Position numbers and translations under genes: made by a program. The notes beneath the pieces were generated by a model, which worked only from the letters and a program-made list of their open reading frames with translations, ran no database searches and was not told the DNA's origin. Below, one piece after another: positions 6,301 through 55,627 of a stretch of 64,000 bases of DNA (position 1 is its first letter; each line of letters begins with the position of its first letter). Source of the stretch: Mycolicibacterium sarraceniae (lineage in GTDB: Bacteria; Actinomycetota; Actinomycetes; Mycobacteriales; Mycobacteriaceae); contig NZ_AP022595.1 in the NCBI RefSeq assembly GCF_010731875.1, positions 558,001 to 622,000 of the forward strand. Reading direction: 5' to 3'.

Positions 6301-7410
6301 ACCGGCATTGCCCAACCAGAACCCACTCGCCCCGCCGTCCCCACCGGACCCACCAGACCCGCCAGCACCGCCACGACCGCCGTTACCGTAGAGCGACAGC
6401 ATCCCGGCGTCACCGCCCTGCCGCCAGCCCCACCAGCCCCGCCGGACCCGCCGGTCCCGCCGTTACCGTAGAGCAGGCCACCCGAGCCGCCGCACCGCCG
6501 GCTTGACCACTCGAGCCCGCCCCACCGGCCCCACCGTTACCCATCAGGCCCGCACTGCCGCCGTTACCACCGTTGTAGCCGTTACCGCCGTTGCCCAACA
6601 GGCCACCGCCGCGACCGCCGTTGCACACCGCGCCCCCGTGCAGGTCGACGGGTGTAGCTATAGCCGTTGCCGAGTAACAGGCCAGCATTGGGATGAGCCG
6701 CGGTGCCATTGGACACGAAGATCGCGATAAAGCGAGTCCAACTCGACGGCAACGCCGGATTCGACAGTGCCGCCGTGATCAAACTGTTCGGCACCGGTAA
6801 CACCGACACCGACACCGACGCAGACGCAGACGCCGACTTCGCGGAGGCAGGACCGTTCACCAGAACACCCGACCCGGCCCCGGTCCCGGTCGCGGTCGCG
6901 GTCGACGAGGAAACCCTCGGAGGAGACAGCCGAGCGCACCACCACCGACGACGCGCTACCGCTCCCCGCGGGCGCACCACCACGGGCCGCACCCGCACCA
7001 GCCGACGACCGCTGACCCGACATCGCACCCCGCGACGCCACAGAAGACGACGCCGAAGAAGACGCCGCCTGAGAAGACGCCGAAGAAGGCGCCGTCGACG
7101 GCCGACTGGAAACCACACCCGTCTTCACAGTCTTGGCCGGGGCGTCAGCTCTGCTACTGGCCGCCGACGAGCCAGAACCCTCGCCGGTATCGGCATGAGC
7201 CACCCCCGAACCACCCACCAAAGCGGCACCCACACCCAGGGTCATCGCACCCGCACCCAACCAGCCATAGGCAGTGATCCGCCGGCCCGCGCCACGCGGC
7301 TTCTCACGCCGATGAGCCGGACCACTGTCATCGAGGCCCATGTCATTGACCACCGCCGCCCACACCGACGCCGACAACGAATTCAACTCCACACCACTGC
7401 CCTCGGTCAT
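3347..7410 (-). pseudogene. PGRS-type glycine-rich surface protein, multiply frameshifted
   Basis: The 5' end starts at ATG 7410 (MTEGSGVELNSLSASVWAAV) behind a GAGAGG site. A Sec-like signal follows (AYGWLGAGAMTLGVGAALVG ending in VAHAD), then a Ser/Ala-rich linker. After frame changes the sequence reads NSLITAALSNPALPSSWTRF and NAGLLLGNGYSY, then long Gly-Gly-X / Gly-Asn-Gly-Gly PGRS repeats to a TAG at 3347-3349. The N-terminus is not a PE domain. At least four uncompensated frame changes occur, near 6900, 6655, 6490 and 4505. Two compensated out-of-frame patches occur near 4270-4310 and 3860-3900. No single product spans the gene, so it is a pseudogene unless the shifts are assembly errors in this low-complexity DNA. 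Confidence 0.8.
4140..5715 (-). repeat. Tandem ~645-bp (about 215-residue) repeats inside the PGRS gene
   Basis: The unit beginning SGTGGTGGRGGDGDAATPDG and passing through GYNAGADPSA occurs two full times, with a third, diverging copy. Shared anchor strings lie at 4202, 4846 and 5497 (spacing 644 and 651 bp); a second anchor lies at 4451 and 5101 (650 bp). The copies are nearly identical, which suggests recent unequal crossing-over or gene conversion. Confidence 0.85.
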
Positions 7411-7539
7411 TGCCCCAGCCTCTCGCCGCAAAAAATGCCCCGGTACGGCAAAAGTCACCACGACAATGCCGCGAAAAAACTAACACAAGCGTCAGGAATC
7501 GCTGGGCTCATTCGCAGCCCACGAGTTACTCCCGCCTCA

Positions 7540-8075
7540 ACAAGCGTGGATTGGCGATCACCGGCCAGCAACGCAGCACTGATCGCGCCGTGCTAGCCCG
7601 CCGGATCGCCCACGAAGATCGATAGTGCCGGCATTGCGGGAAACAGAGCAGCCCGCCTGACAGCAACCACCCGCACATTGACCCACGAGCCGCTCAGGTG
7701 GCGGTGATCGGGGTCGATGAGCACATCGGGCGGCACACCCACCGCGGCGACAAGCACGTCACCGTCATCATCAACCCCACCCCCCGGTGCGCGATAAGAC
7801 CGGCCCGGCCCGGCCGCTCGACAGCGTCGCCGACCGCTCCCACAAGGCGTTCACCGACCGGCCGCGCAGCGGCCCCAGTGCTGGACCCCTGCCCCGTGGC
7901 CAGGCGGGCCAGCAACGCCCCCGACGACTGCCCGCGCCGCATGCAGTCGGCCACCTGCCGACACCGCAACCGCAGCACCGATCCGCTCCACACCTGCCGC
8001 CGCACCCGACACACCAGAGCCGATCAGCTCACCGACAAGCAGAACACCCGAACGGACGCACCGGATGTCCAAACA
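7540..8075 (+). pseudogene. ISL3-family transposase fragment
   Basis: Plus-strand frames spell ISL3-type transposase blocks: VAVIGVDEHIGRHTHRGDKH then VTVIINPTP (first catalytic-Asp region), RDKTGPARPLDSVADRS, and after a gap CPVARRASNAPDDCPRRMQ, TDPLHTCRRTRHTRADQLTD and KQNTRTDAPD. Upstream, pieces such as STDRAVLARRIAHED resemble the helix-turn-helix region just before the catalytic domain. The segments lie in different frames, a central part is missing and the C-terminus is absent. It is a non-functional relic and the third transposase family in the block. Confidence 0.75.
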
Positions 8076-49624: not shown

Positions 49625-50060
49625 AGACCGAAAGCGATCTACGTCGACCCCAACGGTGCGTTGGTGAAGTGTCGGCAGTTCGGTGAAGTCTTGGCCGAGC
49701 AGCTGGTGATCCGTACTCGGACTCAGTGCGCCGGCGATCGGCAGGTCGACCGAATCATCGCCCTGGAGCGCGCGGGTGTTCTCACCCGCCAGACCGCTGG
49801 CGCTCTTCACGAGATCAGAAAGATCGGCAACGCCGCCACCCACACTCATCTGTTCGATGTGCACGCCGCGTTGAGCGCACTGGAGCAGTGTTGGCAGCTG
49901 GGCAACCTGCTCCGGATCGCGGTTTCAGGGGATCGCACCCCACGAAGCTTTATAGCGCCCGAGCCTTCGTCGCCGCGGCAGACCCGCAGGTATGCCGACG
50001 GCCCGCGCCCCGAACACAAATTGGCCGCCTGGCGACGCGACGAACCAGTGCCGTTCTGCT
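49625..50060 (+). pseudogene. hsdR: Type I restriction HsdR N-terminal relic
   Basis: Reads KAIYVDPNGALVKCRQFGEV, LAEQLVIRTRTQCAGDRQVD, IIALERAGVLTRQTAGALHE and IRKIGNAATHTHLFDVHAAL then EQCWQLGNLLRI. This is the helical N-terminal region found at the front of many type I restriction R subunits. A stop lies just upstream (49622), so the real start is missing. Homology fades after about 49985, before any nuclease or helicase domain. It is a 5'-truncated and 3'-deleted fragment. Confidence 0.7.
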
Positions 50061-50064
50061 ATGA

Positions 50065-50638
<574 letters not shown>

Positions 50639-50670
50639 AGCACTGGACATCCGACGCATAATGACAAGCG

Positions 50671-52371
50671 ATGACCGGACCCGCTCCCCAGCCCCGCAAA
50701 CCCGTCATTCTCACCGTTGACGACGACCCGGCCGTGTCGCGCGCTGTTGCTCGCGACCTTCGCCGCCACTACGGCGATCGATACCGGATCGTGCGGGCAG
50801 AATCCGGGCCGGACGCGCTGGAAACGATCAACGAACTCAAGCTGCGCGGCGAGACCGTCGCGGTGTTCGTCGCCGACTACCGGATGCCTCAGATGAGCGG
50901 CATCCAGTTCCTCGAAGAGGCGATGGACGTCTACCCGATGGCCCGGCGCGTTCTACTGACGGCCTATGCCGACACCCACGCCGCGATCGACGCCATCAAC
51001 GTCGTCGATCTGGACCACTACCTGCTCAAGCCGTGGGATCCGCCGGAGGAAAAGCTCTACCCGGTGATCGACGCGCTACTGGAGGCCTGGCACGCCACCG
51101 GCGATCGCGCCATCCCCCACACCAAGGTGATCGGGCACCGGTGGAGTGAGCGGTCCTGGGAGGTCCGCCAGTTCCTGGCCCGCAACCAGCACACGTTCCG
51201 GGCGTTCAACGCCGACGAGCCCAAGGGCAAGCAACTGCTCGACGCCGCCAGCCTGGATGGGTTGGAGCTGCCGGTCGTCATCACCGAGAAGGGCGAGATC
51301 CTGGTCGACCCGACCAACGCCGCGCTTGCCGAAATGCTGGGGTTATCGACCAACCCCTTGCTCGAGATGTATGACCTCGCCGTCATCGGCGGCGGGCCGG
51401 CGGGACTCGCGGCCGGCGTGTACGGCGCGTCCGAAGGGCTCAGGACGGTCCTGATCGAGGAGACGACGACCGGCGGCCAGGCCGGGCGCAGCTCGCGGAT
51501 CGAGAACTACCTCGGCTTCCCCACCGGCGTCTCCGGGGCCGAGCTGACGACGTCGGCGCGCCGGCAGGCCGAGCGTTTCGGCGCCGAGGTCATCACCACC
51601 CGCAAGGCAGTCCGGCTGGAGGCCGGCGAGGCAGGAACCGCTCGCACCATCACCTTCGAGGACGGCGGCAGCATCGCCGCGCGGGCGGTCATCCTGGCCA
51701 CCGGTGTCTCCTACCGCCAGCTGCAGGTCACCGGATGCTGGGACAACCCCGACGACCCCGCCAGCAACTACGTCGGACGCGGCGTCTACTACGGCGCCTC
51801 GGTGTCGGACGCCTCCGAATGCAAGGGTGAGGACGTCTACATCGTCGGCGGGGCCAACTCGGCCGGGCAGGCCGCGATGTACATGTCCCGCGAAGCCAAC
51901 TCGGTCACCATGCTGGTGCGCGGCCCCTCGCTGGAAGCGTCGATGTCGCACTACCTGATCCAGCAGATCGAGAAGAATCCCAACATCTCCGTCCGGACCT
52001 GCACCGAGGTGGTGGACACCCTCGGCGACGATGATCACCTGACCGGCCTGGTGCTGGAGGACAGGCAGACCGGTCAGCGGGAAACCGTCGAATCCACCCG
52101 GATGTGCTGCTTCATCGGCGCCGAGCCCCGCACCAACTGGCTCAAAGAGGTCGTCGCCGTCGACGACCACGGTTTCGTCCTGGCCGGACCCGACCTGGCC
52201 AATGTGGCCGGGTGGGGTCTGGACCGGCCGCCGCACCACCTGGAAACAAGCGTGCCGGGTGTGTTTGTTGCAGGAGACGTGCGCGCCGAGTCCGCCAAAA
52301 GGGTGGCCGCGGCTGTCGGCGAAGGGTCGATGGCGGTGATGTTGGTGCACCGCTACCTGGCCGAGGCGTAA
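50671..52371 (+). CDS. Response regulator fused to glutaredoxin-like and thioredoxin-reductase-like domains
   Basis: A 566-residue three-domain protein. Residues 10-130 are a receiver domain: acidic pocket ILTVDDDPAVSR, phospho-acceptor Asp in VFVADYRMPQMSG, and LLTAYAD / YLLKPWDPP switch residues. Residues 150-225 look like a glutaredoxin/thioredoxin fold (HRWSERSWEVRQFLARNQHT, ELPVVITEKGEILVDPTNAA) without any cysteine. Residues 230-566 are a TrxR-like flavoprotein: YDLAVIGGGPAGLAAGVYGA for FAD, VYIVGGANSAGQAAMYMSRE for NADP, and ETSVPGVFVAGDVRAESAKR. The CxxC of true thioredoxin reductases is missing (GVYYGASVSDASECKGEDVY at that place), so this is probably a different NAD(P)H oxidoreductase. 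It starts at ATG 50671. The kinase gene follows 17 bp downstream. Confidence 0.9.
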   Translation: MTGPAPQPRKPVILTVDDDPAVSRAVARDLRRHYGDRYRIVRAESGPDALETINELKLRGETVAVFVADYRMPQMSGIQFLEEAMDVYPMARRVLLTAYADTHAAIDAINVVDLDHYLLKPWDPPEEKLYPVIDALLEAWHATGDRAIPHTKVIGHRWSERSWEVRQFLARNQHTFRAFNADEPKGKQLLDAASLDGLELPVVITEKGEILVDPTNAALAEMLGLSTNPLLEMYDLAVIGGGPAGLAAGVYGASEGLRTVLIEETTTGGQAGRSSRIENYLGFPTGVSGAELTTSARRQAERFGAEVITTRKAVRLEAGEAGTARTITFEDGGSIAARAVILATGVSYRQLQVTGCWDNPDDPASNYVGRGVYYGASVSDASECKGEDVYIVGGANSAGQAAMYMSREANSVTMLVRGPSLEASMSHYLIQQIEKNPNISVRTCTEVVDTLGDDDHLTGLVLEDRQTGQRETVESTRMCCFIGAEPRTNWLKEVVAVDDHGFVLAGPDLANVAGWGLDRPPHHLETSVPGVFVAGDVRAESAKRVAAAVGEGSMAVMLVHRYLAEA

Positions 52372-52388
52372 CCAGCAAGGAGAAGACG

Positions 52389-53873
52389 ATGGGCGAGAAA
52401 TGCCTACCCGACGAACTGCGGACCCTGTTCCTGTTCGAGGCGCTGACCGACGAACAGTTGCAGACGCTGTGCGCGAACGGGCATATCCGCGTCTTCGAGA
52501 CCGGCCCCGTCGTCGTGGAGGGCGAGCCGGCCACCTGCTTCTACGTTCTGCTCGACGGTGAGTTGGTGATGTCCAAACGCTCCGGCGGGGTCGACGTCGA
52601 GACCAATCGCACCTCGCAGCGGGGCGTGTATTGCGGAGCCTGGTCGGCCTACATCCCCGACGAGGAACAGCTCTACCAGGCGTCGGTGCGCGTCACGCGG
52701 CCGTCGCGGTTCTTCGTGCTCGACGCAAGCGCGTTCGCGAAATTCATGCAGACCGAATTCCCCATGGCCGTGCACCTACTCGAGGGCCACATGGTCGGCG
52801 GCCGGCGACAGAGCCAGATCATCGGACAGCGCCAAAAGCTGCTGGCGCTCGGCACGATCACCGCGGGGCTCACCCACCAGCTCAACAACCCCGCCGCTGC
52901 TACCGCCAGAGCAGTCGCCGATCTGCGCGAGGGGGTCGGCAAGATGCGCTACAAGCTGTCGATGCTGGCCGACGGCAAGTTCACCCCTGAGGCGCTGCGC
53001 ATGCTGGTACGCATTCAGGACGAAGTCGCCGAAATGGTCGCCAAATCCAAGGCACAGGAACTGACCGCGCTGGAGACCTCCGATCGCGAGGACCAGGTCG
53101 GCGATTGGCTGGAAAACCACGGCATCGCCGGGGCGTGGGATTATGCGCCGACATTCGTGGAGGCGGGCCTGGATGTCGATTGGCTGGAACGCGTCGAGGC
53201 CTCCATCGATTCGGTCGACTGCTCGGCGACCTTGCAGAGCGCCATCGGCTGGCTGAAGTACACCATCGACACCGAATTGCGGATGAACGAGATCGCCGAC
53301 GCCTCCGAACGTATCTCCGGTCTGCTCGCCGGGGCCAAGAAGTACTCCCAGATGGACCGGGCCGAGTACCAGGTCGCCAATGTGCACGAGTTGCTGCACA
53401 GCACGCTGAAGACGCTCTTCGGCCACAAGGTAGGCCCGGACAAACCCATCAAGCTGGTCAAGGACTGGGATAAGACACTCCCCGAAATCGGCTGCTACCC
53501 AGGCGGTTTGAACGAGGTATGGGATGTCATCATCAACAACGCCATCCAGGCGATGAAGGGTCGCGGCACGCTGACAATCCGCACCGCCCGTCAGGGCGAG
53601 GACATGATCCGGGTCGAGATCGGTGACGACGGCCCCGGTATCCCCGACGAGATCATCGATCGGATCTTCACCGCGTTCTTCACCACGAAACCGTTCGGCG
53701 AGGGCGACGGCCTCGGCCTGGACCTCGCGCGCCGCATCATCGTCGAAAAGCATCAGGGCGATATTCAGGTGGCGTCCGAACCGGGCAATACCCGCTTCAT
53801 CATCCGCTTGCCGCTGACGGCGCCGGGACCGATTGCGCCATCGCCAGGTGAACTTTCCGCCACTGCGGAATAG
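52389..53873 (+). CDS. Cyclic-nucleotide-domain sensor histidine kinase
   Basis: A 494-residue soluble kinase and probable partner of the preceding response regulator. Residues 10-130 form a cNMP-binding/CRP-like domain (LRTLFLFEALTDEQLQTLCA, VEGEPATCFYVLLDGELVMS). A dimerisation/phospho-acceptor region follows with His in LGTITAGLTHQLNNPAAATA. Residues 340-480 are HATPase_c: N box EVWDVIINNAIQAMKGRGTL, G1 IGDDGPGIPDEIID, F/G2 FTTKPFGEGDGLGLDLARRI. There are no membrane helices. ATG 52389 is preceded by AAGGAG. The ligand is unknown; key cAMP-phosphate residues are not clearly present. Confidence 0.9.
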   Translation: MGEKCLPDELRTLFLFEALTDEQLQTLCANGHIRVFETGPVVVEGEPATCFYVLLDGELVMSKRSGGVDVETNRTSQRGVYCGAWSAYIPDEEQLYQASVRVTRPSRFFVLDASAFAKFMQTEFPMAVHLLEGHMVGGRRQSQIIGQRQKLLALGTITAGLTHQLNNPAAATARAVADLREGVGKMRYKLSMLADGKFTPEALRMLVRIQDEVAEMVAKSKAQELTALETSDREDQVGDWLENHGIAGAWDYAPTFVEAGLDVDWLERVEASIDSVDCSATLQSAIGWLKYTIDTELRMNEIADASERISGLLAGAKKYSQMDRAEYQVANVHELLHSTLKTLFGHKVGPDKPIKLVKDWDKTLPEIGCYPGGLNEVWDVIINNAIQAMKGRGTLTIRTARQGEDMIRVEIGDDGPGIPDEIIDRIFTAFFTTKPFGEGDGLGLDLARRIIVEKHQGDIQVASEPGNTRFIIRLPLTAPGPIAPSPGELSATAE

Positions 53874-53902: not shown

Positions 53903-54736
53903 ATGAGCGCCAAGCCCGATCTCGGCAGGTTCGCATCATTCGGTCGCGGGGTCACCCCGCAGCAAGCCAAGGAGATCGAGGCGCTGGGGTACGGCGCAGT
54001 CTGGGTGGGCGGTTCGCCGCCGGCCGAATTGGATTGGGTGGAACCAATTTTGGCCAACACCACCACGTTGAAGGTGGCCACCGGCATAGTCAACATCTGG
54101 ACCGCGGCGCCCGGCCCGGTGGCCGAGTCGTTCCACCGCATCGAAGCGGCCTACCCCGGCCGGTTCCTGCTCGGCATCGGCGTCGGCCATCCCGAAGCCA
54201 CCGAGGAATACCAGAAACCGATCGACGCGCTGCGCGGCTACCTCGACAAGCTCGACGAGTACGGTGTGCCCAAGAACCGGCGGGTGATCGCCGCACTCGG
54301 ACCGCAGGTTCTCAAACTGTCGGCCGCGCGCAGCGCCGGGGCGCACCCGTACCTGACCACGCCCGAGCACACCGCGCAGGCGCGCGAGCTGCTGGGCCCG
54401 CATGCGTTCCTGGCACCCGAACACAAGGCGATCCTCACCACGGACGCTGAGAAGGCGCGGCAGGTCGGCAGGGGTGCGCTGGACATCTACCTCAACTTGC
54501 AGAACTACCTCAACAGCTGGAAACGGTTGGGCTTCAACGACGAAGACGTGGCCAAGCCCGGCAGCGACCGGCTGGTCGACGCCGTCGTGGCCTACGGCAC
54601 ACCCGAGGAGATCGCGGCCCGGCTCACCGCCCATCTCGACGCCGGGGCCGACCACGTGCCTGTCCAGGTGTTGACATCTTCTGACAAGCTGGTGGATGCG
54701 CTGGCTGCACTGGCCGGCCCGCTGGGTCTCAAATAA
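53903..54736 (+). CDS. F420-type LLM-class oxidoreductase (tandem copy 1)
   Basis: A 277-residue luciferase-like oxidoreductase from the short TIGR03620/MSMEG_4141-type subgroup. It begins MSAKPDLGRFASFGRGVTPQ, then GYGAVWVGGSPPAELDWVEP, TTLKVATGIVNIWTAAPGPV and YPGRFLLGIGVGHPEATEEY. F420 is the expected cofactor. It lies 30 bp after the kinase gene on the same strand. It is about 60% identical by eye to the next gene, a tandem duplication. Substrate unknown. Confidence 0.9.
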   Translation: MSAKPDLGRFASFGRGVTPQQAKEIEALGYGAVWVGGSPPAELDWVEPILANTTTLKVATGIVNIWTAAPGPVAESFHRIEAAYPGRFLLGIGVGHPEATEEYQKPIDALRGYLDKLDEYGVPKNRRVIAALGPQVLKLSAARSAGAHPYLTTPEHTAQARELLGPHAFLAPEHKAILTTDAEKARQVGRGALDIYLNLQNYLNSWKRLGFNDEDVAKPGSDRLVDAVVAYGTPEEIAARLTAHLDAGADHVPVQVLTSSDKLVDALAALAGPLGLK

Positions 54737-54769: not shown

Positions 54770-55627
54770 GTGACCAATCCGTCGCTGCTCAAACCCGATC
54801 TCGGCCGCTTCGGAGTGTGGACCGCCGGCCCGGTGTCACCGGACCGGGCGGTCGAGATCGAGCGCCTGGGCTACGGCGCGATATGGGTCGGCGCATCGCC
54901 GGCTGCCGAGCTTGCGTTCGTCGAGCCGATCCTCGAGCGTACCGAGAATCTGACCGTCGCCACCGGGATCGTCAATATCTGGAACGCGCCGCCAGACGAG
55001 GTCGCAGCGTCCTTTGAGCGCATCGAAAATGCTTATCCCGGAAGGTTTTTGCTCGGTGTGGGCGTAGGTCACCCCGAGCACACGCAGGATTACCAGAAGC
55101 CCTACGAGGCGCTGGTGAGCTATCTCGACAAGCTCGACGACAAGTGCGTGCCGACCAGCCGTCGGGTGATCGCCGCGCTCGGGCCCAAGGTGCTGCAGCT
55201 TGCCGCGCATCGCAGCGCCGGCGCGCACCCCTACCTGACCACCCCCGAGCACACCGCGCAGGCGCGCGACCTGGTGGGTGCGTCGGCGTTCCTGGCGCCC
55301 GAACACAAGGTGGTCCTCACCACTGACGTCGAAGAGGCCAGAAGGCTCGGCCGGGACAGCGTCGGCTTCTACCTGGGGTTGAGCAACTACGTCAACAACT
55401 GGAAGCGGCTGGGCTTTAGCGATGCCGACGTCGAGCAGCCGGGCAGTGACAAGTTGATCGACTCGGTGATCGCCTACGGCACGGTCGAGGCGATTGCCGC
55501 GCGGCTGACCGAACACCTCGATGCCGGGGCCGATCACGTGACCATCCAGGTGCTGGGCGGGCCCGACACACTGCTGCCCACACTGACCGAGTTGGCCGGG
55601 CCGCTGGGGCTGACCGCGGCCGGGTGA
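54770..55627 (+). CDS. F420-type LLM-class oxidoreductase (tandem copy 2)
   Basis: A 285-residue paralogue of the preceding gene, starting at GTG 54770 behind GAGAGG. It has KPDLGRFGVWTAGPVSPDRA, GYGAIWVGASPAAELAFVEP, LTVATGIVNIWNAPPDEVAA, RFLLGVGVGHPEHTQDYQKP and ALGPKVLQLAAHRSAGAHPY. It is close to copy 1 over the whole length, with conserved active-site regions. It ends at the edge of the relic zone (rmlB, LysA-like fragments). Confidence 0.9.
   Translation: MTNPSLLKPDLGRFGVWTAGPVSPDRAVEIERLGYGAIWVGASPAAELAFVEPILERTENLTVATGIVNIWNAPPDEVAASFERIENAYPGRFLLGVGVGHPEHTQDYQKPYEALVSYLDKLDDKCVPTSRRVIAALGPKVLQLAAHRSAGAHPYLTTPEHTAQARDLVGASAFLAPEHKVVLTTDVEEARRLGRDSVGFYLGLSNYVNNWKRLGFSDADVEQPGSDKLIDSVIAYGTVEAIAARLTEHLDAGADHVTIQVLGGPDTLLPTLTELAGPLGLTAAG

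Follow-up and report, generated by a model that had tools for sequence, protein, structure and literature searches.

What might a two-component system govern when its response regulator ends in a reductase fold, and when that reductase has lost its redox-active cysteine pairs? The question is raised by two adjoining genes, encoding a response regulator fused to glutaredoxin-like (Grx) and thioredoxin reductase-like (TrxR) domains and a soluble histidine kinase, in a 64,000-nucleotide stretch of DNA (the window; positions 558,001 to 622,000 of contig NZ_AP022595.1) from Mycolicibacterium sarraceniae, whose genome is a single 4.83-Mb contig. Response regulators with enzymatic output mostly serve the synthesis or breakdown of second messengers or the modification of proteins. 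For this pair we propose, with about equal weight for and against, a two-component system whose output would be flavin redox chemistry, not transcription.

The response regulator gene (50671 to 52371, from its ATG to its stop codon; everything described here between 50671 and 55627 lies on the + strand) encodes 566 amino acids. A receiver domain (residues 13-125, 50707 to 51045; Pfam PF00072 Response_reg, E 3.4e-13) is followed by a cysteine-free domain of glutaredoxin/mycoredoxin fold (residues 150-225, 51118 to 51345), assigned by its profile match to 2lqo and its predicted fold, and by a TrxR-fold FAD/NAD(P)H core (residues 232-565, 51364 to 52365), assigned from Pfam, NCBIfam and structure matches, with Pyr_redox_2 at residues 234-552 (E 1.2e-29). 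The expected phospho-acceptor D69 (50875 to 50877) is Asp in 64 of 65 receiver-type rows, and D17, D18 and K120 are kept in 65/65 and T97 in 63/65. The reductase part was aligned across 100 relatives (63 rows of alignment A4 plus 37 further loci), with the TrxB of M. sarraceniae as an outgroup outside this count. Both cofactor sites are conserved: in the FAD Rossmann motif GGGPAG (residues 240-245, 51388 to 51405) G240, G242, P243 and G245 each stand in 100/100 rows, and in the NAD(P) motif GGANSA (residues 393-398, 51847 to 51864) G393, N396 and A398 do so too, with G394 in 98 and S397 in 99.

The former CxxC site, YYGASVSDASEC (residues 373-384, 51787 to 51822), keeps Y374 in 100/100 rows. 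Set against SACATCDG of the genome's own ordinary TrxB, in which CATC is intact, the catalytic positions correspond to G375 and S379, the latter opening the stretch SDASEC (residues 379-384). In the 100 relatives the first position is G in 67, W in 25, A in 7 and S in 1, and the second is Cys in 0/100. The window protein has five cysteines (356, 384, 444, 479 and 480), no CxxC anywhere and none at all between residues 148 and 228; a CxxC string elsewhere in the reductase part, CRTC near residue 443, occurs in a single row of the 100 (L053). The core thus shares both Rossmann motifs, for FAD and for NAD(P)H, with low-molecular-mass (low-Mr) TrxR, but not the redox-active CxxC.

The Grx-fold domain tells a parallel story. 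A profile of 25 such domains (alignment A6) found mycoredoxin-1 (2lqo) as its first PDB match (E 5.5e-6), with WSRRS opposite WCGYC; the corresponding site in the window protein is S159-E-R-S162 (51145 to 51156), and relatives have different non-CxxC residues there. Pfam Glutaredoxin was matched at E <= 0.1 by 8/25 domains, the window's own not among them. The domain nonetheless has the Grx/mycoredoxin fold, with neither form of the catalytic cysteine motif, CxxC or CxxS.

The structure of the response regulator was predicted as a single FAD-free AlphaFold monomer model (pLDDT 82.7, pTM 0.69). The model orders the elements of residues 151-222 as beta-alpha-beta-alpha-beta-beta-alpha, and its core superposes on TrxR at 1.9 A in the flavin-reducing state versus 7.6 A in the dithiol state. 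The VIA list was filled by TrxR-core matches, and neither a receiver nor a glutaredoxin chain appeared among the matches listed. As a TrxR fold without CxxC, the core resembles the TrxR-like ferredoxin/flavodoxin-NADP reductases (FNRs), but its sequence is nearer TrxR (best bits 133 versus 79 for FNR). It falls below the curated cut-offs of both TIGR01292 (TrxR; 210.7 bits versus 343.45) and TIGR03140 (AhpF; 160.9 versus 502.9).

A preliminary description of this locus had proposed a normal receiver aspartate, an enzymatic output in place of DNA binding, a cysteine-free thioredoxin/glutaredoxin-fold domain and the replacement of CxxC by SDASEC, all of which are borne out for the window protein, with the reservation that the single Cys of SDASEC is kept in 91/100 of the wider family and is not universal. 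The search for a CxxC supplied elsewhere in the protein came back empty. In the comparison with FNR-like families that the description called for, the fold agreed and the sequence lay nearer TrxR. The suggestion that the protein reduces something other than thioredoxin agrees with the loss of the dithiol and with the separate, CxxC-bearing TrxB: since the cofactor sites are conserved without any dithiol, the output would be a flavin reaction whose final acceptor is not thioredoxin.

The kinase gene follows after 17 nt (52372 to 52388) that include AAGGAG. Mechanically called, its open reading frame (ORF) spans 52104-53873 and is overlong; the likely start is the ATG at 52389 behind that AAGGAG, giving 494 amino acids (52389 to 53873). 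The expected phospho-donor H163 (52875 to 52877) and N384, D413, G415, G417, G439 and G441 are each kept in 84/84 rows, and an HATPase_c domain lies at 53505 to 53819 (Pfam E 1.7e-23). Since the peak 19-residue hydropathy is 0.89, a membrane helix is not expected. The protein was also modelled (pLDDT 78.6, pTM 0.49).

Its sensor domain (residues 10-132, 52416 to 52784; Pfam cNMP_binding, E 4.8e-8) has a CRP fold; by sequence, DNR (3dkw, 2z69) and PKG domains are its best matches of known structure. The phosphate cassette of cyclic-nucleotide (cNMP) binding is lost, the window kinase reading YCGAWSAY...YQAS against FGE...PRTA of the PKG domain. The cassette Glu position is A in 80, S in 3 and G in 1 of the 84 rows, and at the Arg position R stands in 2 and Q in 53; a PR.A-like string occurs in none of them, and by alignment an Arg stands two residues earlier in 31. 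Within the clade of the window kinase C5, just before the domain, and C28, inside it, are present in 84/84 rows, and C50, also inside, in 77/84. Because the nucleotide-binding Glu is gone and two cysteines are invariant, cAMP sensing by kinases of this clade is unlikely from their sequences. In 14 distant kinases (16 listed, minus the close relatives L125 and L132) the textbook cassette is kept in five (L144, L145, L147, L148 and L149), C5 in none, and C28 and C50 in two each, and therefore the sensor changed within the family. The cysteine trio was accordingly dropped as a general sensor of these kinases.

How far does the pair extend beyond this genome? A pattern search of a genome collection listed 593 stretches, of which at least 591 encode relatives, and the best 80 of these (L001-L080) were retained for comparison. 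A homologous kinase lies downstream in 79/80; in the remaining locus (L013) the contig ends 1.3 kb past the gene. Given these counts, the architecture is not a chance product. The nearest of the named loci among these (L001-L005) are from Mycobacterium and Mycolicibacterium, at 98-93% identity, and L001-L043 comprise 42 loci of these genera and one of another actinomycete (L043). The conserved phosphotransfer residues, together with the adjacency, make the response regulator and kinase a likely working pair. In four loci (L033, L034, L036 and L043) one reductase precedes two kinase homologues in tandem. In another (L159) a receiver-type reductase is followed by three CRP-domain kinases in a row, and directly downstream of these lies a DisA-type diadenylate cyclase domain (DAC, E 2.2e-21; 7082-7759 of the locus, - strand).

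The same Grx-fold/TrxR-fold part also occurs under a second wiring. On plasmids of Methylobacterium, Rhodococcus, Rhizobium, Caballeronia, Agrobacterium and Paraburkholderia, a cNMP_binding domain takes the place of the receiver. Among sampled loci, with flanks covered for about 1.5 kb or less (whole-genome loci) or for 4-5 kb or as far as the stored sequence reaches (plasmid loci), an ORF matching the kinase CRP profile adjoins 23/25 receiver-type and 0/11 CRP-type reductases. The cNMP_binding match of one CRP-type reductase (L089; 25.4 bits) lies just below the Pfam cut-off of 27.5, the neighbour of another (L086) is a hybrid kinase with dCache and not CRP, and in L088 the reductase ORF has no regulatory domain and is followed by a gene for a zf-UBP zinc-finger protein. 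Since a direct CRP fusion can stand in place of the phosphorelay, control of the flavin reaction appears to be the point of the system. In the tree, the receiver types, L088 and L092 form one group (support 0.935), and the CRP-type group has a support of 0.32; L092, labelled 'Bur' in the tree, is itself CRP-type. A single clean domain swap was therefore dropped, and either two or more exchanges occurred or the tree is poor. One genome of the genus sample described below (G232) carries, beside a receiver-type reductase, a second match of 47% identity over residues 151-564, perhaps of CRP type.

The zf-UBP protein occurs as a neighbour under both wirings. A zf-UBP ORF, matched by BLAST within each locus and by Pfam in the 3 of 34 on which it was run, follows the kinase in 34/37 loci of L044-L080 (the exceptions are L047, L050 and L052); the same BLAST found it in 0/43 of L001-L043, of which L013 and L017 end at a contig edge. 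It adjoins three of six CRP-type plasmid reductases (L087, L089 and L093; not L086, L090 or L092). In 198 genomes of the phylum, zf-UBP lies within 2.5 kb of 11/64 reductase places, and the reductase is present in 30/44 genomes with zf-UBP versus 15/154 without (Fisher p 3.6e-14). This count leaves out six partial matches that lack the Grx part or are truncated (G141:C36, two on G042:C211, G189:C177, G189:C65 and G195:C1:2488315), and counting G141 in gives 16/154 instead of 15/154; one counted place (G195:C1:2688199) carries an internal stop codon. Within a sample of 78 genomes of the genus, 51 have the reductase, 39 zf-UBP and 37 both (p 3.4e-8), that is, zf-UBP occurs in 37/51 reductase-bearing versus 2/27 reductase-free genomes; where the two share a contig (n=11) they are not neighbours, the nearest distance being 66 kb to 3.7 Mb. 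In two loci (L154 and L088) a CRP-type or bare reductase and zf-UBP lie near genes read by eye as Clp ATPase-like, and L154 also has a DnaJ-like gene, likewise read by eye, and thioredoxin and DUF1931 genes identified by Pfam, a neighbourhood suggestive of stress or proteostasis.

Seen against these comparisons, the observation from which the preliminary description started is confirmed, and its interpretation is partly supported. The kinase does have a CRP-like domain and no membrane helix, as described, but without the canonical phosphate cassette it hardly fits a cyclic-nucleotide sensor. Likewise, the two genes do adjoin, but in relatives the unit is larger, taking in zf-UBP or a direct CRP fusion.

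The mechanism that we favor is as follows. The soluble kinase would sense a cytoplasmic signal, possibly redox, metal or thiol, through a CRP-fold domain that lacks the cNMP cassette and bears invariant cysteines, and phosphate would pass from H163 to D69, as the conserved residues and gene order suggest. Phosphorylation may then shift the packing of the receiver and the cysteine-less Grx-fold domain on the TrxR-fold core, and this shift would set the rate of electron transfer from NAD(P)H through FAD to an acceptor. Since no aligned relative retains either of the two dithiols, electrons would probably pass straight from the flavin to an acceptor that is not a thioredoxin disulfide. The CRP domain that sister lineages have fused straight to the same core would bypass the phosphorelay, and the zf-UBP protein would be a frequent further partner, judging from gene neighbourhood. 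A broader version sees here a widespread module of CRP-fold sensor, dithiol-free Grx/TrxR flavoprotein and zf-UBP, in which direct allostery is exchanged for a phosphorelay over the same flavin reaction, one clade has traded its cNMP cassette for a cysteine-based sensor, and phosphorylation-gated flavin electron transfer serves as a signalling output; this we advance tentatively, as somewhat doubtful.

Several points weigh against this mechanism. Activity, phosphotransfer and an acceptor other than thioredoxin are all putative, and a flavin-reducing arrangement taken from one FAD-free monomer model may not be the sole state. The short flanks of two receiver-type loci (L152 and L153) contain no ORF matching the CRP profile, some of the 23 profile matches score low (15-17 bits in L137 and L141), and the CRP-type L089 has a cNMP-binding gene 0.76 kb off that the profile missed, although this gene is ion-channel-like and not a kinase. 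The co-occurrence statistics ignore phylogeny and genome size. Finally, zf-UBP was not found in the genome of M. sarraceniae itself and is missing from 14/51 reductase-bearing genomes of the genus, and therefore it cannot be indispensable.

Other explanations were considered. The loss of both dithiols and the linkage to a small zinc-finger protein would also suit a pseudo-enzyme: by binding FAD and NAD(P)H its core would sense the redox state of the cofactors and, instead of turning over, would change conformation and so signal to a partner, for instance zf-UBP. In the HRRDEFR stretch of TrxB, moreover, R417 alone is kept (100/100, as is P201, the Pro at the cis-Pro position of the Grx fold), and the other two Arg are missing in the window protein. 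The flavin and nicotinamide motifs are, however, conserved as in an active enzyme and the predicted geometry is flavin-reducing, and we regard a pseudo-enzyme as unlikely, if still worth serious attention. A monothiol enzyme, in which a sulfenate, mixed disulfide or flavin adduct at C384 replaces the dithiol, draws on the constancy of this residue in 63/63 rows of A4, in receiver- and CRP-type proteins alike. It lies five residues beyond the former second Cys, at neither catalytic position, and wider sampling shows it replaced by H, Y, I, T, V, F or L in 9/100 rows; therefore family-wide chemistry needs no cysteine there, universal catalysis by Cys384 was dropped, and the monothiol explanation appears highly improbable. 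The least credible explanation, in our estimate, is a disulfide reductase that borrows its dithiol from a partner, either thioredoxin or the Cys-rich zf-UBP protein. A thioredoxin gene does adjoin zf-UBP and a CRP-fused reductase in L087 and L154, but in these two loci only, both of one type, among neighbours looked at unsystematically, and in low-Mr TrxRs it is the enzyme's own CxxC that relays electrons from flavin to substrate.

For mycobacteria a further role may be asked of the genes downstream. A predicted F420-dependent LLM oxidoreductase gene (53903 to 54736; TIGR03620, 375 bits versus a cut-off of 219.8) begins 29 nt past the kinase and is a probable operon member in mycobacteria, and a second LLM-type gene of the same BLAST cluster (54770 to 55627; Bac_luciferase, E 9.8e-17) follows 33 nt further. 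The reductase could feed reduced flavin or electrons to these two enzymes, in the manner of the reductase of a two-component monooxygenase. This would agree with the short gaps and with the LLM ORF that 40/43 loci of L001-L043 have downstream of their kinase gene, within 400 nt in 35 (those without are L013 and L017, at contig edges, and L019, not at an edge). Yet none of the 37 loci L044-L080 has such an ORF, so that the arrangement is at best lineage-specific, and an LLM family predicted to be F420-dependent does not need a flavin reductase; we consider this supply role improbable.

Upstream of the response regulator, between it and ribosomal-protein genes, the window holds an apparent N-6 DNA methylase gene remnant (49661-50670; PF02384 in the ORF 50074-50454), whose counterpart was not seen among the gene picks of L001. 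In a Streptomyces locus (L091:1852-4755) the reductase is preceded by MBL-fold, DUF4032 and universal stress protein genes. A DosR-like hypoxia box was tried and rejected, the pattern GGGACNNNNGNCCC having 0 matches in the window versus 2.08 expected by chance.

If the proposal is true, two-component signalling would be coupled directly to the redox state of the cell, through a response regulator that controls the flow of electrons from NAD(P)H. Source databases label such proteins thioredoxin reductase (NADPH) or FAD-dependent oxidoreductase, and because the dithiol is lost, the former name is misleading for a large family. In addition, bacterial zf-UBP proteins would gain a testable partner, and relatives of the reductase are common in other bacteria. 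A literature search for a dithiol-free Grx/TrxR module, its paired wirings, a zf-UBP link or experiments on the family found none, and the available portion of PMC8945050 has no mention of the family.

Compared with known systems, the receiver-TrxR architecture is already in print, and the dithiol-free chemistry, the paired wirings and the zinc-finger link were not found in the literature searched. Low-Mr TrxB has the same fold, with its domains for FAD and NAD(P)H (over about 305 residues, 35% identity between the window core and the M. tuberculosis enzyme, 9xub and 2a87, and 28% for that of L. lactis, 5mh4); the window protein adds an N-terminal receiver and Grx fold and lacks the catalytic Cys. 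AhpF, the best Foldseek row by E-value (4o5q), likewise has a Trx-fold domain N-terminal to a TrxR core. Its Trx-fold domain is double; the window protein has one Grx-fold domain, an added receiver and no redox dithiol in either part. Mycoredoxin-1 (Rv3198.1, 2lqo) shares with the Grx-fold domain the fold and the Pro at the cis-Pro position, but the window domain has SxxS instead of CxxC. The bacterial zf-UBP structure 2ida, named merely 'Hypothetical protein', matches the zf-UBP neighbour of L071 (E 8.9e-26), though the M. sarraceniae genome has no such gene. TrxR-like enzymes without CxxC are known, namely FNRs and Bdr (PMC10294844). The architecture of a receiver with thioredoxin reductase appears as a database name (P0051) and is called Mycobacterium-like in an archaeal census (PMC5847659); this census category is the same architecture as that described here, and the portion of the source at hand is silent on the missing cysteines, the Grx fold, the kinase, the CRP fusion and zf-UBP.

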